The translations under genes were made by a program, and so were the position numbers. 64,000 nt of DNA from Porphyra umbilicalis. Its lineage: Eukaryota; Rhodophyta; Bangiophyceae; Bangiales; Bangiaceae. Within the stretch, counting starts at the first letter, position 1. Every line of letters starts with the position of its first letter. Under the pieces are notes generated by a model. It had not been told where the DNA came from and searched no databases. It was given only the letters and a program-made list of their open reading frames with translations. This document shows positions 10,609-57,999 of the stretch, one piece after another. The stretch lies in NCBI GenBank assembly GCA_002049455.2, contig KV918774.1, forward strand, positions 62,001-126,000, read 5' to 3'.

Positions 10609-12870
10609 CGTCGAGAAGGGGGGTCGAGGGGGGGGTGGGGGAGATAAGAGCGGCCAGGCGAATGGAGGCGGACAGTGTAGAGTGCAAGCGACGGGCGGGT
10701 TGTGGTGAGACGGGAACCGTGTCGAGACGAAGGCACCGCCCACCGCGGGTTCTTATGCAATGCTCGTGCCAGCGCCGTCTGCGGGAACCGACGGGCAGAG
10801 CGGTCGCCACGCAAGCAAGACCAGTCGTCCCGCGGAGCCGGCTGGCTGTACGCACCGCCACACACCCACGCAACGGTGGAGACCAATGCACGACGAACAC
10901 CCAACCCGCAACCTTTCGACCACAGAGGAATAGAAGAAGCAAGCTCACCCATAGGAAACTCTGCAGCCGGTTCACCGCGGTGCGGCCAAGTACCCGCGGA
11001 CCCCCCATTGGGGGCCGGCGGCGGCGGCAGCCGTCTGTGGCGGCGGCCGTCGGCCGCGGCCGTCCACAGGGGCGATGCGGAGGAGATATTCCCCGATGCG
11101 CACCGACTACCTGTCTTAGGAGCCAGCCAGGGGGGGGGGGGAACCACGAAGAACAAAGGTACTGCCAGACCGCAACAAAGCAAGCAGATGGGGTGGATAG
11201 GGGTGAGGTCAGAAGCGTACGACGACACACAGACCGCCGTTCCATATCACACCAGGGCATTCTACACGGCGGAAGCAAGTGGACCGCTCGCAGGCAATCT
11301 GCAGTAGCAAGAGAAAACGGCAGCCAGACGTACAAACGTCTGTACGGCAGCGACGCCGGCAGAGCCGAACGGACGGTAGATCTCCGTGTGCAACCGCCGG
11401 ACGGCAGGCAGCCGGACGGCAAGCCGCCGGACGGCAGGCCGCCGGACGGCAAGCCGCCGGACGGCAAGCCGCCGGACGGCAAGCCGCCGGACGGCAAGCC
11501 GCCTCCCTCATCCGCTGCCAAGTCTCATCAAGCCGAAAGAGCCGCAGGCTGCCCGCAGGGGCGTCACCCCCTGCGTAGCGCGCGAGGAACGTGCGCACGA
11601 GCAACGGCGGAGAACTGCTGAGGGTCCGCAATCTCGAAGGCGGCTGACAGCCTCAGCTGCGGAGCTCACAGCCGCTCTTGCGTGTCGGTCCCACACAGTC
11701 ACGGCACAGATCCGAAGCTTGTCATAAATGGGTCGCTGACGTCCTGACAATACAGCGATCGCGTCACTCTTCTACAGCAATCAGATCAGTCAGCTGCCAA
11801 CAGGCCCTGGTGGTTGGCTGCACAGTCCGGCTGACGAGCTCTTTTCCTGAGTCGATATTCCAATCGTGGTCAAATTGGGGTAATTGTTTCTGTGATTGGA
11901 CTGTGTTGTAGGAGTTGCCGCGTGCCATTGATCTCCCAATCCGAGCGCTGACTGGACAGGCGTTGCTGAGCCGCACAGCTCTTCGGCCCGCTCCTGGGAC
12001 CGCTTCGCAGCCACGAGGGAGGCGTTTCTGGGAGGCGGTTCTGGCCTTCCGCCGCTGCTGCTCGTCACTTCGCGTTCTGCTCGCTGCGGTCTGGTGCCTG
12101 TGCGCCTGTCGCACAGCTGCCACCCGTGAACGAGCTGTGCTCTCACGGCTGCTCCCCCGACCAGTGACTGCTGTGGAATACTTGTCCCCACAACCCACCC
12201 GAGTGACCTCTCCGGCCGACGCCCCGTTGCCACCCCTTGACGCGCCTCGCGGTCTCTCGCCTCCTCCACCCACCCGCCCTCTCCGACCGGCGCCAGGCTC
12301 TCCCACTCGTCTGCCTTGTTCTGCCTTGGCCGACTCGTCCGCAGCAATTCCGCTCCTCGTCGGACCTACCACCCCCAACTATCTGAGCAATCGGTGCGGC
12401 CCCCATGCACTTTGAACCCCCACGGCGCCTGCAACCCTGACGTCTCGCCGTTTCACTCCATCGACTTCCAAGGTAAGAACTTTTGTCTGAGCGCCCCCAT
12501 CTGTGTGTGTATTGTGAGCCTGGCCACGCGCCGCACTACAGGCCAATATCGAGTGCCGCATATGACCCGCAAGCCCGCTGCCTGGCACCACACTGTTTCC
12601 GTAACCCCGTCGTCTTGGTCTTGCACCGCGCACATGGTATTTTCTCTGTCCTGACCCAAGTGGCCACCCGCCCCCATCAGGTTATGTGTCGGCTACCCGC
12701 CGTCGGTGTGCCAAAGGCGTGAATGCCTGTGCCTGGTCGCGTGTGGCGGCCGCGTCAGCGTCGGTTGGGCAAGCCGGTCCCCGCGGGACGCCAGCGTTTG
12801 TCGTCGGGCATGGCCGCAACCCGTTCTCCCCGGAGCTTCCCTGTCGTGATCCTGGCATACCGCCCCCAAG
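10609..12870. other. intergenic stretch between divergent genes
   Basis: No gene recognised. It lies between the minus-strand gene ending at 10608 and the plus-strand KDZ gene starting at 12871, so it should hold both promoters. It contains a 15-bp tandem repeat at 11397-11510 and G runs near 10620 and 11130. Long open frames here run through the repeat on both strands, have no domain and are considered artefacts. Confidence 0.5.
11397..11510. repeat. 15-bp tandem repeat, about 7.5 units
   Basis: The unit is GCCGGACGGCAAGCC, with minor A/G changes in the first three units. The period is a multiple of three, so both strands stay open (PDGKP on one, GGLPS on the other). The conserved core CCGGACGG is not a perfect palindrome. 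A minisatellite is the simplest reading. Confidence 0.9.
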
Positions 12871-15800
12871 ATGCAGCCCACGTATGGGCCATTGACTTGC
12901 AAGCTGTGCGGCTTGACTAAGGCCAACACGGCGGCTATGCGGAAGCACACACTTGCTGCCCATCGGGAACTCGGCCGCAACGCAAACCGCAGGTTGCCCC
13001 CCCGGCAGCAGGCACCAAGCCCCGCCCTCGTCACCGCAGCTGCAGCCGGCGTGGCGCCATCCCGTTCAGGAGGGTCCTCTTGCGACGCCACGTCGGCTTC
13101 ACTCTGTGGCCAACAGACGGCTCTGCGGCAGCACCCTCTCGCCGCGGGCTCTTCGTCATCCGTCCCGCCTGCCGGCGATGCGCTGCCGCTGGTGGAGCCG
13201 GGGAAAGATGTGCTCCCCTTCATCGCCGCGCTCGAGACGGCCGCGACCGTCGCTGACCGTAGCACCGACGACGGTGTCGTGGGACTGCCAGAGGAGTGCG
13301 GCGACGACGATGCCACTCTTTTGCTCAACCTGTCTCAGGCAGCGGAGGTGCAGGCGTCCCGGGAGGAGAATCTACATCCCGTTGTTGGCGGCAAGCCACC
13401 GCTGGGTGGACAGCAGGCCTTTACCAGTGGCCATGCGCACCACTTCTCTTCGGTCGCAACGGAGGCGCAAGCTGAGTACGAGCGTATTGGCAACGCGAAG
13501 CGGTGCGAGCCCGCCATCGATGCGAGGCAAAATTGCAAGCCGGGGCAGTTCAACACCCCAGCGCTCAAGATGCTGCAGACGTTCGTCAACGAGTGCAATG
13601 GCAGCGGCCTATCCACGGCGTCCCAGACGCGATTGTACGAGTTGCTCGCGAGGTGGGACGGGTCTGACGGCAGCGGCAGCGCGGACGCCGGCGGCCCCAG
13701 CCGCATTGCCGACGTTTTTACCTCGCCGACGGCGTTTCGAAACGCCGTCCGCGACGACTTGGACGACGCAATCTTGTCTGCAGGGTGGAAAAAGTGTACG
13801 CTGGTACAAGGGGGGGTGTCTTATGTGACCTTCTTCCGCTCCGCTCTGAAGACCGCGCTCGACGCGCTGCGCAATGCAAAGGAGGTGCAGCTGCGACGAG
13901 ACGACGGCGACGTTGGCGACCGTCGCGAGGCCCCCATGGACGGTGAGGCGCTTCGTGCGCACCAGGAAGCTGTTGACGACACCACTGCTGAGAAGGCCTT
14001 TGTCCTCGGCCTTTACGTCTACAGTGACGCAAGCTTATTATCCTGGTCGGGTGGTACGTTCCTTATGCTGCTTGTTGACCCGTGCATGAGTTCTCTGTGC
14101 CTGTTCTTGGGGCGTGCTCACTTCTGTGCGGATGCCCGCGTCGTGCTACTGCCTCACACTTGTCTCACTCTAACCGCGGCACTATCGTTGGGCTTCGTTT
14201 TCGTCAACCCTATCTTGTACTTCTTTGTCGCAGCACACTACCTATATCCCATCAGAATTCGAGTCGTCAACGACGTCTCGGGGGAGGTCCGCTGCTTCAC
14301 CGTCGCGTACGTGCCCATCGTGCGGACTCTCAAGGAGCCGGGCGGCAAGGTGAAGGCAACGGGGAGGTGCTGGGGCGTTCTCCAGCGCACTCTCTACATT
14401 GCCTTCCGTGAGGCCATCGCTTCCAGCCACAGTGGCCAATCCCTAGAGACGAGCATCGGGGGCTACACTCTAGCGTTTTTGCGGGTACTGTTGTACACGT
14501 GCGACAGGCCAGAGGAGCGGGCGGTCCTCTGCATGAAGGCGAGCAACTTTGGCAAGTGCTGCTCGTCGTGCGAGGTGCAAGCCAAGGATGCGTGCTCGGA
14601 GGAGGGGGTGACAACGGCACCGCGAGACGTCGTTGAGACACTGACGAGGCACCTCGAGGCGGCCAAGCTCCGGCGCACAACTAGGGCACGCAAGCGCCGC
14701 GTCCTCCTGGAGACGGAGAGCAGCATCAACTCCTTTGTACCCGCACTAGCTTCGTTAGGAGGGCTCAGAACGTTCCCGCACCACCTTTACAAGATGATTG
14801 CCATAGACCCGCTGCACGTATGTTCGGTTTCTTTGCTCAGCTGAGGGCTGTGTGTCATTGTGCATGCCGCATCGATGTGCGTGTCAGCTGCTCATACGAT
14901 TCTCATTGAACCCATTGCTGACATTCTTCTGGTCTGGTTCTTTGATCTGCTTTCCTCTTCGCTTGAGGCACAGGTGCTAGACCTTGGAATAACCCGCATG
15001 CTATGCCATCGGCTCATCGTGATGTTCCCGCATGTTTGCCATGAGTGTTATCCGGAATACAGAGACGAGAGCGCCACTGCCCGTGCGGGAAACGTGCGGA
15101 CGGAGTTCCTCGGGCGCCGTTGCCTGGCGCCGTTTATCGCTCCTGGGTACGTGTATCTGCCGTTCACGCGACGGGTTTTCGGTCCGGGGCTCCTTGGGCG
15201 TGGTCTGCTTTGCATAGCCCCCTGACATTATCAGCTGCCTTGACCTCATGTGGCTGTCTCGATTGGTGCATCTGCTCCTCCCACAGGTACCTCGTCGGCC
15301 TGAAAGAGAAGCAGGCCACCTTTACAGGTGACCAGCAACGGGCTGGATTTTGGATTCTCATGTTCCTCGTTGCGGGTCTGTTTCGGCCAAGTACCCGGCG
15401 GCGGCCGGTGCCAAAGAAGAGGGCCAAGAGACACCCTGCCCCTTGCAAGACCAAGCGAGCATCGCGCTCAACCGCCGCAGCGCCCTCGGCTGCGCCCACC
15501 CTGCCACCGTCACCCATCTCCCCCGCCTCACCATCGGCCGCCCGCCCCGTCACTCTGTCGGCCGCCCCAGCCCCCGCAGTCTCTACCGCCCGCCCCGCCG
15601 CACCTTTGGCTGGCCGCCCCCCCCCACTTCGGGCCGCCCACCCCCCACCACCGTCGCCCGCGCGCCCCGTCACGCCGTCGGCCGCCCCACTCATCCCACC
15701 CTCGGCCGCCCGCCGTCCCCCACCCTCGGCCGCCCACCCTCAGCCACCGTCGGCCGCACGCCCCTTCACGCAATCGGCCACCCCAGCAATCCCACCCTCG

Positions 15801-22105: not shown

Positions 22106-22478
22106 TGTTGAGCATGGCTCAGCAATTCCATTTGTCTATACTTACCCGGTTGAGCATTGGGACTCAGTTTTGGGTATTTACCTATGCACTTGTTGTATGT
22201 TTTGTACTTGTGTGTACTTGATTTGTTGGTCTCGTAGTGGGCACTCTCTGCTGGGGTGAGCTCGGGGGGGGGGACTTGTGCGGGGAGGTGCATGCCCCGT
22301 TCTGGGAGGTGCGCCGCGGCCCGCGTGCACTGAGAACTGAGGCACGTGGGTGTGCTCCGAGAGCGGGCTGCCCGACGACCTGTCCTGGGGCCGCCTGGGG
22401 TACATTAGGTGGCTGGACACGGCCCAGGACCTCTGCCATAGTAAAATAACGCATCCACTTGACCACACCGACTTCACA
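22106..22478 (+). repeat. copia 5' LTR
   Basis: 373 bp, TG...CA ended, nearly identical to 27698-28070. Preceded by target duplication CCCAT. Confidence 0.95.
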
Positions 22479-22492
22479 GGTTATGGGCCCAG
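22479..22492 (+). promoter_or_regulatory. primer-binding site, half-tRNA type
   Basis: GGTTATGGGCCCAG directly follows the LTR and is complementary to the anticodon-stem and loop region (CTGGGCCCATAACC) of eukaryotic initiator tRNA-Met. Drosophila copia is known to prime from such an internal half-tRNA fragment rather than the 3' CCA end. Confidence 0.8.
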
Positions 22493-22634
22493 TGTCGCTG
22501 GTGGTCATCGTCGTCTTCCGTGCCGTTGTTGGCGGGACGACCTTGGTTGGGTTGCCGTGTGTTCCGGCGTCGGGCAGGTGGGTATAGCCTCCCACGTCTT
22601 CAGTGCCGCGCCTGCTGGCGTGGTTGTCATCGTC

Positions 22635-25600
22635 ATGTCGGAGTACGGCCGCTACGCTGGCCCTCGCTTCGCGCAGCTGGACGACGACTACAAGGTCTGG
22701 GCTGTGTACTGCCGTGCACAGATGATCAAGGAGAAGGTTTGGGCTGCGGTTGTGACGGACCGCCCCGCGTCTGGGAGCGGTGCCAAGAGCGACGTTGCAG
22801 CTGAGGCGTGGGACCTCATGAACGAGTCGGCCCTGGCGACTATCCAGATGTCGGTCAAGCCGGTTCATCTTTATTCGGTGACGGCGGTCAGTACGGCCAA
22901 GGAGGCGTGGGATGCGCTCAAGGACATCTTTGAGGCGCGGGACAACGCACGCCTGCTGCAGCTCATGCATGAGCTGAGCAACCTCAAGAAGGGCAGCGAC
23001 GAGAACATCATCAAGTACACGTCGCGCGCCAAGGGCATCCGTCAAGAGCTCTCCATGCTGGGAAATCAGGTGGACGAGAACACGCTTGTCCTGCAGATCC
23101 TGTCGGGCCTTCCGGCCGAGTATGACATGATCAAGACCGTTCTGGAGAACATGGACGGGAAGCGCAACCTCGCTGACGTGAGCGCCAAGCTGCTCACTGT
23201 GGAGCAGCGGGAGAGCCATGGGCGGTCGTCCTCGGCGACCGGCGTCAAGTCGCAAGCGTTTGCGGCAACGGTTTCTAAGAAGCCGTGGGACAAGCGCGCG
23301 GTCGTGTGCTACTACTGCGACAAGAAGGGGCACATGAAGCGCGACTGTCTCAAGAAGAAGGCCGACGACGCCAAGGGCAACAAGAAGCCAAATGGCGGGC
23401 GTCGTGAGGGTGGCGGTGGAGGTGGTGCACCTCCCCGCGCTGCATTGGCCTACGCTGCGTCGGCAGGCCAGGCCGGGAAGCTCAACGCTTCCGGGAGCAC
23501 CAGCGGGTCCTCGACCTGGGTGTTGGACTCGGGTGCGACCAACCATATGGCCGCCCAGGACGCGGGTTTCACCGTCAAGACGACGGGGAGCGGGGCCAAG
23601 GTCACTCTAGCTGACGGCCACAAGGTGCCCATCAAGGTGCACGGATACGCGTCCATGGACGTGGGGAAGGGAATCACCACGGCTCGCATGGTCCTCGATG
23701 AGGCCATGCTTGTGCCGGATCTGACAGACAACCTTCTGTCGGTCCGAGCGGTCGACCGCTGTGGCGGTGCCGTGGTGTTCGTTGGCGACGCCTGCTATAT
23801 CCTCAGTGATGGGGAAGCGGTGCTCGCGAGCGGAGTTTTGAGCAACGCGTCTGTCGTCGGCTCGGTCAACGAGTCGGAGAACTACGTGCTCAAGGTGACT
23901 CCGGTCACGGCGTCGGCCAGAGCCGCCTCCACGCACATGGACGGCGAGGCAGAGCTGTGGCACCGCCGGTTCAACCACTTGGGTTTCGAGAACCTCAAGC
24001 GTGTGGTTGGGATGGTCGATGGGATGCCATCGACGGTAGCCGACGCCAAGCGCGTTCCTGGTACGGTATGCGTGCCTTGTGTCGACGGAAAGATGGCGCG
24101 TTCTCCGCATCATCGCTCGACAACGACCACCACCAAGTGCGAGTTGGTTCACACGGACGTTGATGGGCCGTTGACGGCGTCGCTGGGCGGCTCTGTCTAC
24201 TTCGTGACTCTGATGGAAGACTCCACTGGGTTCATCACGGCGACGCCCATCAAGTCCAAGGGCATGGTTCCGGATGTCCTCAAGGCCCGCATCAAGCAGC
24301 TAGAGACCCTAACTGGGCTTAAGGTGAAGCGGGTTCGTCACGATGGCGCCAAGGAGTACGTGAGCCGCGACCTCCAAGCCTGGTATGAAGACAAAGGCAT
24401 TACGTCTGAGAAGACGGCGCCGTACTCTTCGCAGCAGAACGGGAAGGCAGAGCGCGCCAACCGGTACATCATGGAGCGCGTCCGTGCGGCTCTTCTGGAC
24501 GCCGGAGCGGAAGAGGAGCTGTGGGCGGAGGCTTTGTCATCCGTCATCCACGTGCTCAACCGATCCCCCAAGGCGGGTCAAGATGTGACCCCGCTGGAAG
24601 CCCTCACGGGGAGACGCCCCGACGTGAAGGGATTTCGGGTCTGGGGGAGCCGGGCATGGGCTCTGAAGCCCAAGCAGCAGCAGCGAAAGCTGGAACCCAG
24701 GACCGACGTCGGCCGTTTTGTCGGCTACACTGTTGGTGGCAAGGCCTACCGCATCCTAGAGGATGGCTCAAACAAGGTCTTTGAGCGCCGAGATGTGCTC
24801 ATGGAGGAGACCTCAAGCAAAGCCATCAAGATGACCTCTGTCCCTGGCCCTGCTTCCACCCCTTTCCTGACCAGTCAGACGGATGGTGACAAGGAGGACG
24901 GCGCCATGGACATGCTGGAAGCGGAAGCCGCAAGCGGGGACGAGTATGCCTCGCAGCAGTTGTCAGAGAGCGACGTTGAGCCGGACGAGGCTTCCGGACT
25001 CGACGCAGAAGACGGAGATGACAATGACGCCGGCGAGGACGCGGCGGATCATGATGGACACGACGTGCTGTCTGGATCCACCTCAGAGAGTGGTGAAGAC
25101 GGGGTGCAAGCACTCCGGCGGTCGAAGCGCAAGCCGGCACCCAAGGTTACCTGGTGGGAGCGTAACCCAAAGGCATACGCTGCAGAAGGACCCAAGGGCG
25201 GAGATCCGTCGGGATGGGACCTGACCAAGGCGCCAGCCAATGCGAAGGAGGCGCGTGCGCGATCGGACTGGCCGCGTTGGAAGGCGGCTGAGAAAGAAGA
25301 GTACCTCGCACACATGAAGCTTGGTACCTGGTCCAATACCAGGAGCAGCAACAAGCGTAAGGCTGTCAAAACGCGGTATGTGTACGACATCAAGCACGAT
25401 GCTGAGGGAAACATGACTCGGTACAAGGCGCGACTGGTGGCGCAGGGCTTCAACCAAGTGCCGGGGCGCGACTTTGATGAGACATGGGCACCAGTGCCGA
25501 GCTCGGCCACGTCACGCGCGCTCTTCGCGGTGGCGGCGGCCAAGGACTGGGAAGTTCACCACGTGGATGTGAAGACGGCCTTCCTCAACGCAAAGATGGA

Positions 25601-26819
25601 CAAGGAGATGTACATCAAGCTTCCGGTCGGAGCCGAGCCGGGGGAGGAAGGTGATGTCCGCCGTCTGAACCTGGCTCTCTATGGGACCAAACAGGCGGGA
25701 CGATTGTGGGGCATCAAGCTTAACAAAGAGCTCAATGCCATCGGAGCGGTCCGGTCCAAGGTGGACCCGTGCCTCTACACGTGGAGCCACCCTGTGCACG
25801 GGCTTGTCTACATCCTCGTCTACGTGGACGATCTCATTGTGGCTGGAAAAAGCCTCGAAGGGGTCCAGATGGTCAAGGCCTCGGTGTCGGCGTCTTTCGA
25901 CGTGCGCGACATGGGTGAGGTCAAGGACTTTATTGGCATGAAGGTCATGCGAGATCGGGCTGCCAAGGTGATCACCCTGAGCAATCCGGGGCATGTCAGT
26001 TCCCTGCTTGAGGCTTTCCAGATGGACAAGTCTGCGCCTAACAAGACGCCCATGGTGTCAGGTGCCAAGCTTTGCAAGACGGGGGAGAATCTACTGCCCG
26101 AGGGCAACCGGTACGCCGAGCTTGTTGGCTCGTTGCTGAACCTCTCCACGACGACGAGGCCGGACATTGCCTTTGCCGTGGGCGTGCTCTCCCGCTACAT
26201 GTCATGCCCCGAGGAGGACCACATGCGCGCGGCCAAGGGGGTGCTCCGATATCTTCGCGGGGCTACGCGACTAGGGGTCGTGTACGGCGACGACAAGCCT
26301 CTCCAAGGGTACGTTGACGCAGACTGGGCAGGCGATATTGACGCTCGTCGGTCGACGACGGGCTTTGTCTTCACCCTCAATGGCGGGCCGATATCGTGGA
26401 CGAGCAAGCGCCAGTCGACCGTGGCGACGTCAACGGCCGAGGCCGAGTACGTCGCCGCCGCTATGGCGACCAAGGAGGCGCTGTGGCTGCGCAAACTTCT
26501 GTCGGAGCTGGGCGTCGACGGGGACGCCGTGCCCATGGGGGAGGACAACCAGGCGTGCCTCCCTTTGGTCAACAATCCCGAAGCCACCGGGCGTACCAAG
26601 CACGTAGACGTTGCGTACCACATGGTGCGCGACTACGTCGCGCGTGGGGAGGTTGCCTTCTACTTTCTTCCCAGCGCCGACATGCCCGCAGATGGCATGA
26701 CGAAGCCACTGCCGGCCCCGGCGTTCACCACATTCCGGGGCGTCATCGGCGTTGGCTCGGATCTGGGCACTTCGAGGAGTAGTGGCACGCGGGCCCTACG
26801 TCCTGCGCCGCAGTGCTGA
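22635..26819 (+). CDS. copia gag-pol polyprotein
   Basis: Single frame of 1394 aa from Met 22635 (MSEYGRYAGPRF). An upstream in-frame Met at 22350 lies in the LTR and is unlikely. Order of parts: Gag with a UBN2/DUF4219-like region, a CCHC zinc knuckle near residue 225 (CYYCDKKGHMKRDC), aspartic protease with DSGA near 298, the GAG-pre-integrase block (HRRFNHLGF) near 442, integrase core ending in SSQQNGKAERANR near 600, reverse transcriptase with YVDD near 1063, and RNase H (DADWAGDIDARRSTTGF) near 1229. Protease, integrase, RT, RNase H is the copia order. It acts in cytoplasmic particles and then the nucleus. The frame looks uninterrupted. Confidence 0.95.
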   Translation: MSEYGRYAGPRFAQLDDDYKVWAVYCRAQMIKEKVWAAVVTDRPASGSGAKSDVAAEAWDLMNESALATIQMSVKPVHLYSVTAVSTAKEAWDALKDIFEARDNARLLQLMHELSNLKKGSDENIIKYTSRAKGIRQELSMLGNQVDENTLVLQILSGLPAEYDMIKTVLENMDGKRNLADVSAKLLTVEQRESHGRSSSATGVKSQAFAATVSKKPWDKRAVVCYYCDKKGHMKRDCLKKKADDAKGNKKPNGGRREGGGGGGAPPRAALAYAASAGQAGKLNASGSTSGSSTWVLDSGATNHMAAQDAGFTVKTTGSGAKVTLADGHKVPIKVHGYASMDVGKGITTARMVLDEAMLVPDLTDNLLSVRAVDRCGGAVVFVGDACYILSDGEAVLASGVLSNASVVGSVNESENYVLKVTPVTASARAASTHMDGEAELWHRRFNHLGFENLKRVVGMVDGMPSTVADAKRVPGTVCVPCVDGKMARSPHHRSTTTTTKCELVHTDVDGPLTASLGGSVYFVTLMEDSTGFITATPIKSKGMVPDVLKARIKQLETLTGLKVKRVRHDGAKEYVSRDLQAWYEDKGITSEKTAPYSSQQNGKAERANRYIMERVRAALLDAGAEEELWAEALSSVIHVLNRSPKAGQDVTPLEALTGRRPDVKGFRVWGSRAWALKPKQQQRKLEPRTDVGRFVGYTVGGKAYRILEDGSNKVFERRDVLMEETSSKAIKMTSVPGPASTPFLTSQTDGDKEDGAMDMLEAEAASGDEYASQQLSESDVEPDEASGLDAEDGDDNDAGEDAADHDGHDVLSGSTSESGEDGVQALRRSKRKPAPKVTWWERNPKAYAAEGPKGGDPSGWDLTKAPANAKEARARSDWPRWKAAEKEEYLAHMKLGTWSNTRSSNKRKAVKTRYVYDIKHDAEGNMTRYKARLVAQGFNQVPGRDFDETWAPVPSSATSRALFAVAAAKDWEVHHVDVKTAFLNAKMDKEMYIKLPVGAEPGEEGDVRRLNLALYGTKQAGRLWGIKLNKELNAIGAVRSKVDPCLYTWSHPVHGLVYILVYVDDLIVAGKSLEGVQMVKASVSASFDVRDMGEVKDFIGMKVMRDRAAKVITLSNPGHVSSLLEAFQMDKSAPNKTPMVSGAKLCKTGENLLPEGNRYAELVGSLLNLSTTTRPDIAFAVGVLSRYMSCPEEDHMRAAKGVLRYLRGATRLGVVYGDDKPLQGYVDADWAGDIDARRSTTGFVFTLNGGPISWTSKRQSTVATSTAEAEYVAAAMATKEALWLRKLLSELGVDGDAVPMGEDNQACLPLVNNPEATGRTKHVDVAYHMVRDYVARGEVAFYFLPSADMPADGMTKPLPAPAFTTFRGVIGVGSDLGTSRSSGTRALRPAPQC

Positions 26820-47286: not shown

Positions 47287-48003
47287 TGTGTGGGGATGGC
47301 CAAACGGTTGGGGGCGCATCCAAACAGGTTTGTTTGGTGTGGCGCGCCTCCGAACGGGCCCGTTTGGACTGGCGCTGCCGTTGAAGATCCAAAACTAGAG
47401 CAATCGTGTGTCATGGACACGAGGTCGATTAGGCGACTAGAATACAGTCTTTCTCCAGTGCTGTCCACCCTTTTCGTCGCCTGACAGACTCCTAAGTAGC
47501 CCTCTTTTTTCGTGCAGAAGATGGCAAAATTGCCCTTCCTGGCAGTGCAAAGCTGTCTCGTTCTTATCCAGGGGTGGATAGCAAAGGAACCTACAGGAAT
47601 GGAGAAAGACTGTATGTGAGGATGGTCTATTTTTGGACCGTCACACCCTAGTTCTGGGTCCCAGCCACCAATGCCCGTTTGGCAAAACCGTGCCACGTTT
47701 AGGCGTTTCGGTGTTTGGATCCATTGGTGGAGACGCTCTGAGGGGGGGGGGCGGGCGGCCTGTGCGCGCGCCACGTGGGGGGTTTCAGGGGGCGCGAGGG
47801 GGGTGGTTTGGTGGGGGGGCTAGCTCTTTTTGAATTCTGTCGACTTCGTGCCACGATGTGACCTCGTGCATTGTTGTACTTGCAATGGAGCTCGTGTCCA
47901 GACATAACCATCCTAACCAGGAAAGCCGGGTTCCTCGGCTGGATTATAATCAGTTCAGCAACCAGTCTCTGGCCCGGGCAGTAACTGGTTGAACCAGTTG
48001 CGT
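47287..48003. other. gene-free stretch
   Basis: No gene recognised. GGCCCGTTTGG-like words recur near 47290-47380 and 47668, and a G-rich patch lies at 47740-47820. Confidence 0.4.
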
Positions 48004-48005
48004 TA

Positions 48006-48239
48006 CAGTCAATATCCGGTTATATGCGCTCCAGTTATATGACATGTCATATAACTGGGGGATTTTCCTTGCCCGAGGGCGCACGAGAACGCAGCATTCG
48101 ACTGTTTGCAGACGACCAAGTCGCCACAGGAAATCTCATTGGTCAGATCCTGCAGATGTGGCAGCGCAGTCAGCAACAATCCAGCAACATGGACAGTTGA
48201 CCAAGTGCGCAAGGGTGTCATATAACCGGGTATTGACTG
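48006..48239 (+). mobile_element. pogo-type MITE, complete
   Basis: 234 bp, TIR CAGTCAATATCCGGTTATAT at left and its near-complement at right, flanked by TA (48004-48005, 48240-48241). A perfect 28-bp palindrome (48031-48058, core CCAGTTATATGACATG) lies just inside the left end. Same family as 1-188. No coding capacity. Confidence 0.9.
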
Positions 48240-48241
48240 TA

Positions 48242-49383
48242 TGGTGCTTTGCTGAGAAATGGAGTATGCACGTTTGCGAGTGCAAACGTTTGCCGAGGTG
48301 GACCGATGTCAGGATGACCATCAGATCGTCTCTCACCTGGCTTCAGGGGACCGATAGCGTCCTAAGTGCAATTGCACCTGGCATCACCGGCGAAAGCCAC
48401 AGCCACCCACTGGCACATCGTAAGACGTGGGACTGAGGGCTCATCATGCAGCCAATGACTTCTCATTATTCAATGTCAAGAACACTGCCCAAACCCTGTC
48501 AGAATACCGGTTCAATGAATGTGATCACGCGCCCATTGGCTGCGTCAGGCGGCCTAGTTTCACAGTATTTGAGCCGGCTCTCCACGGTCCACAAGACAGA
48601 GACTGCGCACCTGTGCCATCTGGTGCCCCAGAAGAAACGCAGGTGGGCTGGATCCAGTCACTGCTGTACCCTTCATCGATGGTGACTGGTCAAAAGAATG
48701 TCAGTGATACGTCTCGATGTCAATAAACAAAGGCGATCTACTGGTCACGGAGCTCACGTGTTCAGAGGGCCAATGAACGGCCCGAACGGAGAGAAAAGAA
48801 TTGCAAGAACTCCTCAAGCGTCATGCATGTTCGGAGGCCGATTCAGCCTCTGCGAGCAAACATGAGGGGCCGGTTAGGGGGGACGCTCCTGACGGCACCG
48901 CTGTGGCCGGTGGCTTAAGAAGTCTTGTCCTGATTAGGCTGTCAGCGTGCATGTTCTGGCATCGTTTCACAAAGACCACCGCGGGTGTCAGCAGGTACTT
49001 GCCACCGGGTCACTCAGAGTGCAGTTTTCCAGCTCTTGTCAGCCGTTGTCGGCCCAAGGGCCCGGCGAACCTGGTCGGGATGCTTGACATGTCACACATC
49101 ACCCGGAAATATCATGGGTCTCCCCACAGCACGGGTCAATGCTCGCAGTGGTCGGGTGTGCATGTTTGTTTGCGCAAACGTGCATGCTCCATTTCTCAGC
49201 AAAGCACCATACCTGAGCCAGACGCACAGCACTGCTTTGCTTGCCGCACAGTGTGGTCGCGTCCTTGCTTTGAGTTGGGCCGCGAGGTGGCAGACGGGTC
49301 TGCTGTTGCGTTGTGCGCGCGGCCACTGTGCGCCGCTGTCGCTTCTTCTTTCTCCCTCCCCCACCCACCTCTCCATCATCGCG
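48242..49383. other. upstream region of the NB-ARC/WD40 gene
   Basis: No separate gene recognised. The NB-ARC frame is open back to 48985, but that part reads without domain character, so the promoter and 5' UTR are expected here. T/C-rich just before the chosen start (49340-49380). Confidence 0.45.
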
Positions 49384-52300
49384 ATGAACCTATCTTGTGC
49401 CGCTGCTACCTGCTCGCCCTCCATGGCGTCAATCGTAGGGGCCTCCTCGTCAGTGCCGACGGCCGACGGCGCGTCGGCATGCGGGGATTACGGCCTGCCA
49501 GCGGGTGGGGACACGGCCGCCTGGGCCGCCCTGATGCGCCCCTGCATGGGGCACCTGCAGCAGATCAAACCGGCTGGGATGATGGCGTGCGTGTCGGGCC
49601 TCGCCCACAAGGTGACGGTGACCGCCGTGTCTGTCTGGTTGCACTGCGGCTTGCACTACCAGCCACGGCCGCCGGATACACCCGTGTGCACGCCACCCGT
49701 TTCAGGGAACATGCCGCCTGTGAATCAGCCCAAGAAGGGCTTTTTTTTTTTCCCCCTGCGACGCGACGAGGCGGGTGTGGCCCGTTGGGAGGTCCGCGTC
49801 TTCCACGCTTCACCGACCGGGGAGCTGCCGGCAATCGCTGGACGCTGGGTGATTGAGCTCGTTCATCTCCCAAACTGGGGGGACCCGCTGCGGTTTTGTG
49901 CGGCGTCCGAGGCAGACGCGCTCGAGTGGTATCGGCAGCTGCGGATGCGCGCGGCCCCGCTGGTGCTTGTTTGGATGCGGCACGTGGGCGTGGCGGACGG
50001 CGGCGGCGGTGGCGGCGATGGACTCGGCCCAGCGCTCGGCGGGCCGGCGGTGGTGAGGCGTCTCCTGGTGATGGACGCCCCCACCCGCGGCGCTGGCCAC
50101 CTGGTGGCCACCGACGCGCTGGGGGGAGTGATGGGGGTGGTGGAGTTTGTGGCGGAGGTAACGCAGAAGGAGGCGGCCCACCTCGCCGCCGTGGCCGGTC
50201 CTGTGGTCGGCGTGGCGCTTCAGGCGGTCTGTTTTGCGGCTCGCGTCTTTGCTGCTGCGCAAGTCGTCTTCGAAGAGGCCGCGCAGGCGTCGGCGGATGT
50301 GAACGACCTGCACAGAGTATGTCGACGCCTGCTCGTCGCCCTCAAAGACGTCCGCGGTGACGCAGATGGGGTAGCGGTGGAGCTGTTCCACATCCTGAGC
50401 CGCCTCCTCGCCGATATTGAGGCGGCGGCGGGGGAGCTGCACCACCTGGTGCGGTCCCGCCGGCAGCGTACATGGCTCGCCTGCAGTGCGTCGTGCCGGG
50501 GGGTGGACGTCGGCTCCGACCTGGGCGACCGGCTTTCCCAGACCCGGCGGAATGCGGACGGGCTGATGGACGAGCTAGTCCTGGCGCTGCAGCGCCAAAC
50601 GGCGGTCGACACGGGCCGCATTCTGGCGGCAGTCGGCCCAGAGACGCAGCTCGCGGTGGCGGCGCGGGCGGGGTGGCAGGGCTTACCGGAGCTGCCCGAA
50701 GACACCAGCATTTTCAACGACTGGGATGACCCGACGTTGCCCGCTGCGAGGCTGTACTCTGCGGTCATGCAGTCCGGCGCAACGACTGCGGCGGTCGTGG
50801 GCGCTCACGGAATGGGCGGCGGTGGTAAAACGACGACATGCTTGCTTGTGGCGCACAAGGTTTCGCTGGAGAGCGTCGGCCAGTTGCGATTCCCAGACGG
50901 TGTGCACTGGATGCAGCTGTCCCGGCACTGTGGGTTGGGGGACGTGCGCGCGCAGCTGTGCTACCTGGCGACCACCCTGTCGGGCGAGCTGGTGGAGGCG
51001 ATCGACCTCGAGTTAGCCATTAAGCGCCTCAAGACTGTGGTCAAGGACAAAGCGTGCCTTGTCATCCTCGACGACGTGTGGCACGAGCCGCGGGCGGCGC
51101 CATTTGTACGCGCGTTTGCCCGCTCGGAGCGCTCGTCGCTGCTGTTGTCGTCGCGCCGGGTCGACATTATCAACGCATGTGGCCGTGGTCGCATTGTGCT
51201 TTGTGTCGAGGTCAGCGAGCGGCACGGCACCGACGCGGAGAGTGTGCTCCTCACGCACGCCGAGCGTGGCGGCGTCCCCGCCGAGGACAAGACCGTCGAG
51301 CGCGTACGGCATGCGGTGGAGCTGTGCGGCGGACTGCCCCTCGCTTTGGCCGTGTTCGGCTCACTCGTACGCGGTTATGCACAAAAGAGCCCTCTCGAAG
51401 GCGGGTGGGCTGCCGCCCTCGACCAGGTCGGCAGCCGTCAAGGTAGCCTGCTCACCCAGTCGTCTGGTATCGACATCGAATATGGCTGCCTGTCGGACTG
51501 CCTGCGCGCCAGCTACACAGCGCTCGGAGAGGACGACGACGATCGGCCACTGCGGACTCGAAACTTCCGCGCGCTGTGCGTCGTGCGCTCCACAGAGCAA
51601 CTCCCGTGGACCGCGCTGGCGGCGCTGTGGAATGTGGAGAGTAGAGCGGCCGTGGCAGTGATTGCGCACGACTTTCACGCGCGGTCGTTGGTGTCGCTGC
51701 GCGGCCTAGGCCCTGGCGAGACGCTCTCCCTCAGCCTCCATGACCTGGTAATCGACTTCTTGGCTGGCGTGTTTGTGACTGACTCCGCGGGACAAGCGGC
51801 GTGCTACAGCTTGCTGGTGAAGCGTTACTGCAAACGCAACGGCATCGCGGCGGCCAGCGAGGAAGTCTCCCTTGGGCGCACGCGCGTGGCGCTGCGGCCA
51901 CTGTGGTTGTTGCCCCCAGATGGGTACGTGGAGCGCGCGCTACCCCGCCTGCTTGTGGCTGCGGGCGCCTCTGACGAGCTCTACCTGCTTCTGTTAGATA
52001 TGTGCTTCATCGCCTCGCGGGTGGAGGTGGTAGATGGCCACTGTGGCTTGTACCGTTCCGACTGCCGTCACGCGGTCGATTTGGCCGTGCTCGGCGATGT
52101 TGCCACGGTGATAGAAGGCGCCTTGGCGAACACGGGTCGCCCCCTGAGCGCGCGGCTGCAGCAGATGGCGTGGGAGGTGGCCGTCAGGTTTGGTTCCCTG
52201 TTGGCGGACGGCGCCGCGGAGGCCGACCGGCCGGCCCTCACGTACTTGTGCGAGGCGGCGCGTGCCTACCTCGTCGCCCCCTCTGTCAAGCTACTCGGCG

Positions 52301-54528
52301 CGTCCCACCTGCATGTGCCCTAGGAGCGAAACGTGCTGCCGGACTCCGGACGTGTGAAGCTTATGTGTGCTGGCTTCAAACGCAGCGGCGGCCTGTTTGT
52401 TGTCACCGCATGGTGTCGCGATAAGGTGGCCTCCACCCTCAGCGTCTGGGACGAAGAGGGTGAAGCGGGTGTGTCTGTGATGGACGGCCACGTCGGGGTG
52501 GTGACATATTTGGCGGTGGTTGGCGGCAGCGCGTCCGGCACTGCGCAACTGGTCGTCTCCGCGATAGGCTACGCTCTGCGTGTGTGGGACACCGAAGACT
52601 GGTCCTGTGTGGCTGTGTTGAAGGGTCAGGCCAAGGCCGTGTGCTGCGTGACGATGGTGGGCGCCAGTAGAAGCGACACGCCAGCCCGTCTCGTGTCGGG
52701 TAGTCGGGACGGGACGGTGCGCGTGTGGGACACCACGCGCTGGTCGGCGGGGAGCGTGACCGTGCTGAATGGTCACACCGAGATGGTTACGTGCCTGACG
52801 CTGGTCAACAATAGCCAGTCCGGGAGCCAGGTGCACGTTGCTTCGGGGTCGTGCGACAAGACTCTTCGGGTGTGGGACCTGAATGACGGCAAGTGTGTGG
52901 CCGTGTTGGAGGGTCATGCGGACAAGGTGACGTCCGTAGTGGTGGTCGGCGGCGACAGGAGCCGCACGCCCGTGCAGATGGTGTCGGGATCCGTGGACGG
53001 GACGTTACGGGTGTGGAGTGAGGCTGAGAGCTGGTCTTGCATTGCAGTGTTGGAGGGCCACCTGCAGTCGGTCGACTACGTAGCTGTGGTGCGCAGCGGG
53101 GCCTGCAGTGAGCAGACTTGGGTCGTGTCGGCGTCCGGGTCACACGAGACTAAGGACAACGCGTTGCGGGTCTGGGGCACCAAGGAGTGGGCGTGCGTGG
53201 CGCTATTGGTGGGCCACACCGAACCGATTACCTGCTTGTCGGTGGTGGACGACGACGCGCTCGCTTCCCCACGGGTTGTATCGGGGTCGCGGGACCATAC
53301 CGTGCGGGTCTGGGACGTCGCCACCAAGTCGTGTGTTTCGGTGCTGGAGGGCCACGTCAACTGGGTAGAAAGCCTGGCTGTGGCCAGTGGCCGCTGCTGT
53401 GGCAAGCCGGCGCTTGTGATATCGTCGGCGCTCAACGACAAGGTGCGGGTGTGGAACGTGGCGGGCCGGTCAACGCGAGTGGCGTCATCTCCGCACAAGA
53501 AGGGAATCCGGTCTCTGAGAACGATGGGCCACGGAGGGCATGATGGCGCTGCGGTGCAGTTGGTGTCCGTGTCAATAGACGTGGTCGGGCAGGTATGGGA
53601 CACTGACACCTGGTCGCACCTGGCGGTCATGCCTTGGTGCACCTGTACGTGTCTAGGCATGGTGGCGGTCAACCGCAATGGGTGTGGCGTGCCCACCCAC
53701 GTGGTGATGACGTCGTCCAACAAGCTGGAGGTCTGGGATATGGCCGGTACGTGCGCGGAGGAGTGGACTGGCCATACCTCCACTATCTTCGATGTGGCTT
53801 TGGTGAGCGGCGGCCATGGCCGTGCCGCCGGACGCGTGCTCTCGGCGTCGGCCGACAAGACGGTGAGGGTGTGGGACGTGGGCAGCGGCACCTGTCTTGA
53901 CGTCATTCACTTTCCCGACAGTGTGAAGCAACTGGTAGTGCTCGACTCTGGCGAGAACGGCTCACCAGTGCGCTTTGCGGCCGGTCTTGGCCGTGCTGGC
54001 TTGTCGGGCGCGTTCGTCGTGCACGTCAAGTGTCTGGGCCAGGCGTCGACGCACATCTTGGACGACGTACAACAAACGTCCTTCCACCACATTACGGCCG
54101 TGGGTGACGGTTCAAGTGGGTGCGCCCCGTACATCGTGTCGATTTTTTACGATGGCACGGTGCAAGTGTGGGACTGGAAGCGCACCAGTTGCTTGCACGT
54201 CTTCAAGGAGCCCGTGAGCTGGTCGCGGTGCGCGTCCTGGTGGCCCCACCCACCGGCGGGGGCGGGGCGGCCGAGTGGGGTGCTCGGCAGCGACGGAGCG
54301 GCAGCGGTCAACGACGCGGCGATGGCCTGCGGGTCGGCCGCCGCGTTTGAGGATGCCGCCGTGCTGATTGACGGGAAGGGTTCCTGTGCGCTCCTTGACT
54401 GTCGACAGCTGACGCTGCGATGGCTGCCCGGCCCACCCGATACAACGTTGGTGTCTTGCCTCCCTGGTGGGCGGTTGGCATGGGGCACCCAGACGGGTGG
54501 GGTGTATGGCGGCCAGATCGCTTTGTAA
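49384..54528 (+). CDS. NB-ARC ATPase with PH-like N-terminus and WD40 propellers (NLR/Apaf-1-like), one in-frame TAG
   Basis: One frame of 1715 codons from ATG 49384 (a second Met is at 49423), interrupted only by TAG at 52321-52323. Residues about 95-190 look PH-like, ending in ASEADALEWYRQLRMRA. About 200-375 are helical. The NB-ARC follows: P-loop GMGGGGKTTT (K482), kinase-2 LVILDDVW (D563, D564), LLLSSRR sensor, GLPLA at 650, and LHD in place of MHD at 785-787. After the TAG come about 13 WD40 blades (RVWD endings) up to about 54220. Order and motifs match STAND signal ATPases such as Apaf-1 and fungal and plant NLRs, where the repeats sense a ligand and the ATPase oligomerises. The TAG sits in CCCTAG|G, a possible splice acceptor. 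Otherwise this is two adjacent genes or a broken one. Cytoplasmic sensor role is inferred. Confidence 0.8.
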
Positions 54529-55592
54529 AACCGCCTGCGGCCCTGACGTCTGAACCGCCACATGAGACGAACACGGATGCAGTCAAGGGCAGTGACGCGG
54601 GTGCGTCACGCGCGGGGCGTGTCTGTAACCAGGCGCAAGCCGGCCAGCCCCCCTGTGGCAACACCCGATACCGTCAGCACACAATGCCCGCCGCAGGGGC
54701 GGCCGCCGTCAGGCGGGCAAGGCTACCAACGCGGGCGGCGAGCACACGAGCGAGACTTTACGCGGCACTCACACTGACGCCGCGCGCCGCCAACTGCCCG
54801 GGGTGGGAACCAACGCACCACGACACAAGACCGCCACCCATCCGTGCAGGGCGGCGCGCGTCAGATAACATGCGCGCCAGTGGGGCGGCTCACCAGGACA
54901 GCACCACAACACCACGCAGTGCGCACGGGTCCAGTAAAGGGGAAACACCCGTGCGGACAACGACAATAACAAAAAAACGCACCCCCACCGGCCGCCGCGC
55001 TGGCGCGCACAGGCGGCGCCCCCTCGCCGCGACGCGTCTGGACGAGCGAGCCATCCGTGACGGTCACACCAACGACGCCGCCGCGGCGCCCGCGCGGCAC
55101 GCGGCACCTTCCTTCCGACGGCGTCGACACGTGCAGACGCGGCAGCCCCAACGCCCGCCAACTGCGCACCGCCGCCCGCATCACACAGCCGACGGTGCCG
55201 CCCGGTCGGGCCGCGCCGCTCCCCATCAGGGTGGCAGGACCCCGAGCGCCGCCCGCGAGGCCGTCCTGCCACAGACTACTGCAGCCGCTGCAGCGGCAGG
55301 CGGTATGCGGCGGCCGCCAGGCGTGGCTCGACAGCGTGGGGGAGTGGAGAATCGGGGGGGCGGCGGGCAAGCCCGAGCGCATCACAACGACAGCAGCACA
55401 GAAAAGCAATAACAAACAAATGAGAAAGGCGCCAACGCAACTAATAGCAACGAAGCGAGCCTCCTAAAGACGTCGGGGGGACTCGGAGGACTGCCGGTAA
55501 CCACCGACCGCTCCCGCGCCGCCATACCGCTCGTAACCCGCCCACTCTGCGGCCGCTGGCGTGGCGCCGTGGTGTTCGCGGCCGCCTCTACC
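54529..55592. other. 3' flank of the NB-ARC/WD40 gene
   Basis: A long frame (54420-55412) overlaps the gene end in another frame and continues here, but reads only R/A/P/T-rich sequence without a domain. I treat it as an artefact. No other feature seen. Confidence 0.45.
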
Positions 55593-57173
55593 CTGTGGTG
55601 CGTGTCCCGAAAACGAGACATGCGCGTTTTCTCAAAGACTGACACTTCACTGCACGGGGGCAGGCGGCGTAGAAATTCTCGACTGGCCTCCATGGAAAGA
55701 GCCCCTCCCGACGCGTGCTTGGCTGACAACTCCTTAATATCCGTCTGTCACCAGTTCTTGACACTTGCACCAGTTCTTAGCAAATCGGGGTTGTGTGGGA
55801 AATCCACAGTGTTTACATATGAAATCGGGTTCCTGGGGATGCTCCGGAACCGCCTACGGCGCAGTTCACTGTTTTTTATAAAATAAACAAAGCATATCAG
55901 CGCGGTCTGAGTCACACCACTGGACTCGTGAACTCATCAGCTCTCCAACGATGCCTTGTGCGCCTCAAACGGAGCACTTCTGGACGAGAACAGCGTGTTT
56001 CCCTGGAAAAGAACAGGAAAAAGTACATGGCCGGATCGGTGCAATTCCGCGTCCACAGAGCCCTTCCAGTGATTTCCGATCGGAGCGTCTTGCTCCCGCC
56101 CGCGTTCGACGCAGGGATCCGGATGTCGAGTCACTCCGATGCACCCCGGAGCCCCGTAGTGGCTGTATGGGCCGATTTCTCGGCCAAGGTCGACGAAGAG
56201 GTGTGGTCAGCACATGAGAGAGGCTCTGGAGCCCGAGGTTCGTGGTCACATTGTACTGTGCGAGTTTTTCAGGGCTACCTATCGCCCCCCCCCTCGCCCC
56301 GCCATTCATGTCACCACAGCACAACCCTGTCCCAGTTCCCTGCGTACCAGCACAGGCTTACTCATCATTTTATAGTCCATCTGATAGCCCCTGAGCCCCC
56401 CTAACCCACCTCCCCCCTTCCCATCCGCCGCCCTTCCTCCCCCACCCGTGCGCCCCCCGTCCCCACGTATGTCCTTGGCCTGCAGCCTTCCCCCCCCGCC
56501 TCCCCCCCTCCCTCCCCCCTGCTCTATCCTCGACCCCCGCCCAAAGTCTTGTTTTAGCAACCCTCTGACTCTCATGACCCTAGAGGTTCCTCGAAAACTC
56601 ATGTGCCCCTCGTCTGCGAAGCGTCTAGAGCTACACGCGCTCCCTTCGCTGTCCACACAGCTCCTTCGTGTGGTCAAAGGCGACACAAGGATGGAAACTC
56701 GGGGCTCCAGATGATCAAATACTCCGTTCATGCTAAGTTTTTCTGACTGTAATGTGCGATTCCGAGCCGTTCTCATATGAGAAATTATTGTGTCAAGAAC
56801 TGGTGCAGACATTTGCTTGGGTGCATTTTCCAGTAGAAGAACGGATGCGCCCCAGCGGAAACAGAAAAAACCGCCGACCCCGCCAGACTCTCCTGAGGCG
56901 AGCCATATTTTTATTTTTCGGTGGGGATAAGATTAAGCCTTCATCAAAGGCCAGTTGCTAAGAATTGGTGTCGGACGGATACCCGCCTGTGGGCCCTGTT
57001 CTGTGGACCTCTCAGATAGCCCCGATCTTGGAGCCAGTCTTTTTCAGGTTCTTGGGGTTAAAGGTTTGCAACGCCAAAGCTCATGTGCTAACTGGAGCTT
57101 CGATGAGGGGTGTCCCAATTCGTGTTTTCCTCACAGGGGGCTACATGGGGGTCTTTTTCACGTTCTTATTGGT
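55593..57173 (+). repeat. tandem unit A, split by a mariner-like element
   Basis: 55593-55739 plus 56980-57173 together match the adjacent unit B (57174-57521), about 85-95% by eye. Only the DNA at 55740-56979 is extra. The unit contains GTGCGTGTCCC...GAGACATG, and the complement of that word recurs at 57775-57802. Confidence 0.8.
55740..56979. mobile_element. mariner/Tc1-type non-autonomous TIR element
   Basis: 1240 bp with termini TCCGTCTGTCACCAGTTCTT (left) and a matching diverged complement at the right (TCCGTCCGACACCAATTCTT read from 56979). Flanked by TA (55738-55739, 56980-56981), while the empty site in unit B has TA once. An inner copy of the terminal word lies at about 56793-56813. 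It contains a C-rich tract (56405-56530) and no recognisable transposase. Confidence 0.8.
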
Positions 57174-57521
57174 ATGGTGCGTGTCCCAAAAATGAGACAT
57201 GTGCGTTTTCTGAAGGACTGACACATTACTGCACGGGGGCAGGCGGCGTGGGGTACGAAAAAATTCTCGACTGGCCTCCATGGAAAGAGCCTCTCCCGAC
57301 GCGTGCTTGGCTGACAACTCCTTAATACCCGCCTGTGCGCCCTGTTCTGTGGACCTCCAGGATAGCCCCGATCTTGGAGCCAGTATTTTTCAGGTTCTTG
57401 GGGTTAAAGGTTTGCGACGCCAAAGCTCATGTGATAACTGAAGCTTCGATGAAGAGTGTCCCAAATTGTGTTTTCCTCACAGGGGGCTACATGGGGTCTT
57501 TTTCACGTTTTTATTGGTAAG
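57174..57521 (+). repeat. tandem unit B, uninterrupted
   Basis: 348-bp direct duplicate of unit A, starting TGGTGCGTGTCCC and ending TTATTGGTA. Serves as the empty-site reference for the 55740 insertion. Confidence 0.8.
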
Positions 57522-57999
57522 GTGGTGCCCTTTTCTCCGTGCACAAATTGTCAGGACATGCCTGCTTTAGTATCTGTGCATTTGATTGGGCCGCGTGATC
57601 GTCACCTGTCGAAGTTGCAATGAATGACACTTTCCCCCATGACATGTCAGGATGTGCCGCCTCTGCTAACACTGTCAGGGGCTGTTCTGGAAGCACAGTG
57701 GGACCGAGTGGGTCACATTACATTATCGGACCGTTGCAGAAGGCCAGTGGGCCGAGAAGAAAAGAAAAAACCGCGATGTCTCATTTTTGGGACACGCACC
57801 ATATGGCGCTTCCCCCTTTTCTGATGGCGATCTCTTTTTTGGTTACAGTGAGGAGGGGTAGTCCGCATTTTTTTTTTCTAGCCAAATCGACCAATGGCGT
57901 GCCTGGAGCGCTGGCCCGCCGTTGACTCAGCAGACAGCTCGAACGCACGAGTTGCTGCAAGCCTCCATCGCCAAATTCGCAACCCACAGGACCCGAATC
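57522..57999. other. gene-free stretch
   Basis: No gene recognised. Holds the reversed GTGCGTGTCCCAAAAATGAG word at 57775-57802 and a T-run near 57870. Confidence 0.4.

Follow-up and report, generated by a model that had tools for sequence, protein, structure and literature searches.

The window analyzed in this study, a 64,000-nucleotide stretch of contig KV918774.1, contained a gene with the parts of an NLR-type receptor, namely a PH-like segment, a helical segment, an NB-ARC domain with a winged-helix region, and WD40 repeats (Table 1). In a tblastn search, the paralogue L024 (1701 aa) matched this gene as a single colinear block at 49423-54525 with 79.2% protein identity, and colinearity over 1701 codons at this level is beyond chance. 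The sole stop in the match was found at alignment position 966. The initial annotation had begun the gene at 49384 and had read NB-ARC and WD40 in one frame; the ATG at 49423, which is kept in the paralogues, is probably the start, and 49384 is less likely. The NB-ARC and WD40 parts lie in the same register, and because the TAG at 52321-52323 falls between them, the window copy is not a single open frame and does not encode NB-ARC and a repeat sensor in one protein. At the site of the TAG, the close paralogues have CAG (8 of 10), CAA (1 of 10), or CTG (1 of 10). An intron removing the TAG was considered and found unneeded, since the paralogues align codon for codon on either flank. The window copy would yield at most a product without WD40 repeats.

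Table 1. Coordinates of the receptor gene, its parts, and other features of the window
Feature	Position	Strand	Evidence
Whole NLR-type gene	49423..54528	+	Start ATG to terminal TAA, 1701 codons, one in-frame TAG
PH-like segment LRFCAASEADALEWYRQLR	49504..49950	+	Last strand and C-terminal helix clearest; hhalign, weak Pfam PF00169
Helical segment with hydrophobic stretch, candidate effector bundle	50074..50613	+	Low-confidence model; weak alignment to TPR-type family
NB-ARC domain with P-loop, Walker B, and GLPLA	50785..51447	+	Pfam E 1.3e-18; PDB relative Apaf-1
Winged-helix region with LHD	51571..51762	+	Pfam APAF-1-like_WHD E 0.053, below cut-off; LHD seen directly
In-frame TAG between NB-ARC and WD40 parts	52321..52323	+	Paralogue codons at this site
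WD40 part, at least 12 blades	52324..54525	+	Pfam WD40 and VW[DGSN] blade ends
Two nested or adjacent transposon-like insertions flanked by terminal inverted repeats	48003..49212		Inverted repeats; between conserved 5' flank and gene
DDE_1 transposase-like frame	5298-6428	+	E 7.9e-31
Weak Plavaka transposase match	12850-14841	+	E 2.3e-4, below curated cut-off
Copia-type retrotransposon, 1492-aa open frame	22341-26816	+	Copia-type gag, integrase, RVT_2

The Pfam NB-ARC match scored 67.6 bits (cut-off 23.5) over residues 468-688 of the frame 49384-52320, and its nearest solved relative in the PDB was Apaf-1 (E 1.6e-13), followed by plant NLRs. All motifs named in the initial annotation were located, including the P-loop (GMGGGGKTT, 50809-50835), LDDVW (within LVILDDVW, 51058-51081), GLPLA (within GLPLAL, 51331-51348), and LHD (within SLHDLV, 51733-51750). 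Its count of about 13 WD40 blades is fair, because 12 clear VW[DGSN] blade ends were identified, and Pfam WD40 matched 52333-54525 with E 8.3e-40. Pfam detected neither HET nor NACHT in the window protein, no HET in 14 N-termini, and no CARD in the window protein or 14 N-terminal segments at E up to 1. The single match found by PADLOC covered the WD40 part only.

A whole-genome search of the 83.8-Mb assembly revealed at least 41 NB-ARC places, of which 33 were read (the window plus 20, 5, and 7 loci; eight were left out). Eighteen were WD40-type (the window and L009-L025) and 15 were TPR-type (L026-L033 and L040-L046), the latter assigned by N-terminal and NB-ARC sequence, plus TPR repeats where the frame shown reaches them. 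Pfam analysis of five full frames identified NB-ARC with WD40 in L009, L010, and L016, and NB-ARC with TPR in L028 and L040. Uninterrupted tblastn matches, without a stop, were obtained for 11 of the 18 WD40-type copies (the query, L024, counted); the matches of L010 and L011 stop short of the C-terminus, and the two loci have open frames of 1693 and 1798 codons, respectively. Stops interrupt the window copy, L012, L017, and L023, and a frameshift interrupts L019, while the L014 match ends at residue 862, broken before any WD40, and the L015 match begins at residue 124. The lesions in copies other than that of the window comprise a TAA at a Tyr, a TAG at a Val, a TAG at a Glu, a TGA in a WD40 blade, and the frameshift; the stops of L012 and L023 and the frameshift of L019 all lie upstream of the NB-ARC P-loop. 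The intact members are single long frames in which predicted PH-like and helical segments, NB-ARC, and a winged helix are followed by WD40 repeats, so that NB-ARC and WD40 are fused in the intact copies and the window copy carries a lesion. These results support a STAND/NLR-type architecture for the family; the sensor architecture proposed in the initial annotation stands at the level of the family and fails for the window copy itself.

The PH-like and helical segments had also been proposed from the initial reading. When 13 family members were compared by hhalign with four PH domains from this genome (L035-L038), the match spanned 62 columns with P 9.3e-5 and ended in the tryptophan-bearing C-terminal helix; none of 200 column shuffles was as good. 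We graded the profile support for a PH-like identity as moderate, because shuffles in a control with another alignment reached 28.7, near the observed score of 31.0. Pfam PH (PF00169) matches were weak and below the cut-off, both in 5 of 14 N-termini (E up to 1, best E 0.12) and in 1 of 10 segments (E 0.044). A genome-wide PH search returned five places, with no NLR place among them. Against solved structures, the PH-like profile matched Pellino chains (E 0.11, 0.31, and 0.84) and ribosomal L37 chains, all of which were taken as probable chance matches.

A helical region in the N-terminal part is likely. Helices appeared in a low-confidence single-sequence model of the window segment, with a hydrophobicity (KD19) peak of 2.04, and a hydrophobic stretch was present in 20 of the 20 helical segments examined (KD19 1.68-2.28). 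By eye, the segment may resemble MLKL-type bundles; a genome search for MLKL_N found no place. The helical segments of the WD40-type and TPR-type families align weakly with each other (hhalign P 0.0064, 0 of 200 shuffles as good). No PH match was obtained with the N-terminal segment of the TPR-type family (21 of 200 shuffles scored equally well) or in a retry with 5 of its sequences caught by a text pattern. No confirmed homologue of the N-terminal alignment was found in the viral or genome contig collections searched.

Further signs of decay were identified around and within the window copy. An approximately 1.2-kb insertion, in which two stretches (48004-48241 and 48239-49212) are bounded by terminal inverted repeats, lies 0.2 kb 5' of the gene start, the first repeat pair being 23 nt at 96% (48004-48026/48219-48241) and the second 49 nt at 90% (48239-48287/49164-49212). 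It is missing in L016 and L020 and, by match spacing, in L021; L012 and L025 have approximately 0.5 kb of unmatched sequence at the same site. This upstream insertion is a second sign of decay in the window copy. Upstream of the stop, changes unique to the window copy were 47 amino-acid to 43 silent, versus 238 to 209 in ten other copies pooled (p 0.91), and downstream they were 54 to 20 versus 251 to 176 in the others pooled (p 0.02), so that the excess of unique amino-acid changes was confined to the downstream part. The pattern is consistent with a stop that arose recently and with a WD40 part under relaxed constraint; a truncated product is possible. The window copy is probably a recently inactivated gene, that is, a pseudogene, and probably does not work as a full-length receptor.

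The WD40 repeats of the family were analyzed for selection using the ratio of amino-acid-changing to silent substitutions (dN/dS), after WD40 anchors at W columns 140 and 723 and GH 251 (false) and W 286 (gapped) had been dropped by hand. Among seven intact close paralogues, dN/dS was 0.62 in WD40 versus 0.34 from about NB-ARC onward. Raised registers were G+3 (2.16), G+4 (2.34), G+6 (1.66), and W-7 (1.95), which follow the GH dipeptide or immediately precede the b-c turn aspartate, next to the conserved G+5 (0.08) and W-6 (0.28). Values above 1 were also obtained at W-9 (3.18), W+4 (1.70), and W-12 (1.16), where silent changes are few. The first choice of registers used the same data as the test, and the fair tests are a hold-out and positions known from fungi. 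In the hold-out, registers chosen on half of the blades gave dN/dS values of 2.50 and 1.65 on the other half. For the fungal positions, codons 7, 9, 25, and 27 of HET-E, which Paoletti and colleagues reported on the modeled top face (available text of PMC1805685), were equated with G+4, G+6, W-7, and W-5 by their place around conserved residues; the top-face placing is that of PMC1805685 and not of a model of our own. In the close paralogues, 57 of 20475 four-register sets and 0 of 5000 random sets were as good as the fungal positions.

Near-identical WD40 repeats were found in L009 (13), L010 (10), and L011 (10 or 7, depending on the text pattern), with the L009 array consisting of 12.8 copies of a 141-bp unit at 85% matches. 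Between repeats, dN/dS at the fungal positions versus elsewhere was 2.40 and 0.38 in L009, 7.37 and 0.35 in L010, and 2.18 and 0.65 in L011, and random four-position sets were as good in 4, 23, and 50 of 20000 trials, respectively. Some loop positions in these repeats vary as well. The signal in these independent arrays is clearer than in the close paralogues of the window, where, as in the TPR arrays tested, values above 1 at the expected binding positions are less uniform. No near-identical WD40 array was found in L013, L015, or L017, and that of the window is not near-identical either. There is an excess of amino-acid change at certain WD40 registers, and its location at presumptive binding-face positions supports a recognition role.

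The second NLR family, the TPR-type, combines NB-ARC with TPR arrays and has N-terminal segments of its own. In-frame stops were found in L026, L027, L042, and L043 (from frame positions), and TPR repeats can run unbroken in one open frame, as in L040 (138-bp unit, 14.6 copies). The selection test took in 7 of the 15 TPR-type copies and used groove positions that we take to be 2, 5, 9, 12, 13, 33, and 34. At these positions, dN/dS was above 1 in 5 of the 7 arrays (L030, L031, L032, L040, and L044) and below 1 in L029 (0.96) and L033 (0.89); the excess in L031 did not rise above chance (374 of 5000). The same NLR stretch (L026 and L027), with a shared in-frame TAG, is present on both contig C211 and contig C390, and the two are a recent duplicate or unmerged haplotypes.

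Ten matches to the light-harvesting family were found in the genome, some on contig C7, which also holds actin and Cpn60, and some at one end of contig C40, the contig of the NB-ARC copy L011. These genes suggest an alga, and point to a eukaryote that is photosynthetic or at least has a plastid. One in-frame TAG occurs in an actin place (G000:C139:26005-26904) but in neither of the two best actin places. The genome search for Zn2Cys6 (Zn_clus) gave no match, and as it had no positive anywhere, absence is unproven.

The family shares with Apaf-1 the NB-ARC, a weak Apaf-1-type winged helix, and a WD40 part of at least 12 blades in the window, but differs in that CARD was not found, a PH-like and helical segment stands in its place, and the genes form a diversifying multigene family. 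The HNWD genes of Podospora (HET-D, HET-E, and HET-R) likewise have decayed copies and near-identical repeats with excess change at codons 7, 9, 25, and 27, as in L009-L011 (available text of PMC1805685), whereas the present genes encode NB-ARC rather than NACHT, no HET was found, and the host has light-harvesting genes. Within the close clade of the window, three of the four registers are raised and the window array is not near-identical. In the alga Chondrus crispus, 58 of 61 NB genes are NB-WD40 (available text of PMC7145615), so that NB joined to WD40 in a multigene family of an alga has precedent; in contrast, 23 of those 58 have a TIR and transmembrane peptidase-like domain, and the same text does not mention a PH-like and helical N-terminus. 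Brown algae have a diversifying NB-ARC-TPR family (as cited in the available text of PMC11378527) resembling our TPR-type family in its diversifying repeats, although the repeats there are exon-shuffled and here lie in one long open frame. Fungal NLRs also carry diversifying, internally conserved repeats (PMC4986451 and PMC2873952, in the text available). Algal NB-WD40 genes, the brown-algal family, and fungal diversifying arrays are thus already published in these sources. The terms pleckstrin and PH domain are absent from the available text of two fungal NLR surveys (PMC9815663 and PMC4986451), and no PH-like (or PH-like and helical) N-terminus on NB-ARC-WD40 was found in literature searched by title and abstract, a search outside which most subscription journals lie. 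The suggestion of an undescribed immune receptor is strengthened by selection on the WD40 face, and is weakened by the published algal NB-WD40 genes and by a window copy that probably does not work.

Taken together, we consider it reasonably probable, with the mechanism below included, that the gene in the window belongs to an NLR-type (STAND, NB-ARC) receptor family, in a eukaryote that is probably photosynthetic, and that this copy was inactivated recently. A diversifying NLR repertoire is the best reading, with a function predicted from sequence. Apaf-1 and the plant resistosomes are the established model for ligand-triggered oligomerization of NB-ARC proteins. By analogy, the WD40 top face of an intact member would bind a foreign, self-marker, or altered-self protein, and this binding would free the ADP-bound NB-ARC to oligomerize. 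The PH-like part may then bring the clustered helical segments to phosphoinositide membranes, where they could permeabilize the membrane or signal cell death. Architecture and selection are what was observed, whereas a ligand, oligomerization, lipid binding, and cell death are inferred.

Several results weigh against this reading. The dN/dS values are pairwise counts, not estimates of a likelihood model on a tree, and the four fungal registers jointly gave 1.37 in the close paralogues with a bootstrap range of 0.84-2.21, which takes in 1 because W-5 is not elevated (0.36). Pfam matched none of 14 + 7 N-termini to a death, HeLo, MLKL, or RPW8 domain, and the helical segment has no PDB match to a known cell-death bundle, so that of the initial claim of a helical domain the helices are likely and a named domain is unsupported. 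In L013, L016, and L024, other parts of the frame are more hydrophobic than the stretch in the helical segment. In MLKL, HeLo, and plant CC domains, the bundle is at a free N-terminus, and here the helical segment is internal. With 12 TPR-type sequences, the alignment between the two families weakened to P 0.018, the best of 200 shuffles reaching 20.9 versus 20.98. Two single-sequence AlphaFold2 models of window pieces were unusable (mean pLDDT 38.8 and 36.0).

Other explanations were weighed against the same evidence. It is rather unlikely that the family serves as a developmental or stress STAND scaffold with fast-evolving repeats and has no immune or self/non-self role: STAND proteins do have several roles, but fast change is limited here to a few registers beside conserved ones (G+5 and W-6), and the copy number, decayed copies, and near-identical arrays resemble those of fungal HNWD genes (available text of PMC1805685). 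Less likely still is that the window copy is a functional truncated PH-helical-NB-ARC protein, acting without a sensor as a helper or executor for other members. The ordinary pattern of unique changes upstream of the stop and the relaxed WD40 part would agree with such a protein, as would L014, which is likewise open through NB-ARC and without WD40; however, the L014 tail looks by eye frameshifted rather than like a designed end, the lesions upstream of the P-loop in L012, L019, and L023 fit plain decay, and the insertion upstream of the start adds to this.

Readthrough of the stop, or use of TAG as a sense codon (Gln) in this genome, would restore a full-length protein, and we regard this as highly improbable. 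The window TAG does stand at a CAG position, a TAG in the near-twins L026 and L027 occupies a position that is Q in the TPR consensus, and a third actin place holds a TAG. Nevertheless, L009, L011, and L033 terminate in TAG, and reassignment was rejected, with decay preferred, because the other copies are broken by TAA, TAG, and TGA at different residues and by a frameshift, and 13 Cpn60 matches are free of stops. We therefore retain the reading of the window copy as a recently inactivated member of a diversifying receptor family. As a more tentative extension, for which the balance falls slightly short of even, the genome may have a two-branch NLR repertoire in which a similar N-terminal and NB-ARC chassis carries either WD40 or TPR sensing, with both branches diversifying by near-identical intron-free arrays and ligand-facing residues under positive selection, a form that the sources cited above document for fungal NLRs.

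Besides the receptor gene, the window contains the transposon-related frames listed in Table 1, and its segment 32001-34000 is unlike the remaining window, with 78% guanine plus cytosine and a GC skew of 0.354. A repeat element (L034:565-1199) that sits inside a small-subunit ribosomal RNA gene copy (Rfam match 1-1657) matches the window at 57170-57803 (94%) and 56979-57179 (96%), within 55589-57803.

If our reading is true, the fungal-type route to new receptor specificities through repeat arrays would also exist in an algal lineage, where two classes of sensor would employ it simultaneously. One could then test whether this repeat-array device was inherited from an ancestor or arose by convergence, and whether in algae it serves defense against viruses and parasites or discrimination between strains.

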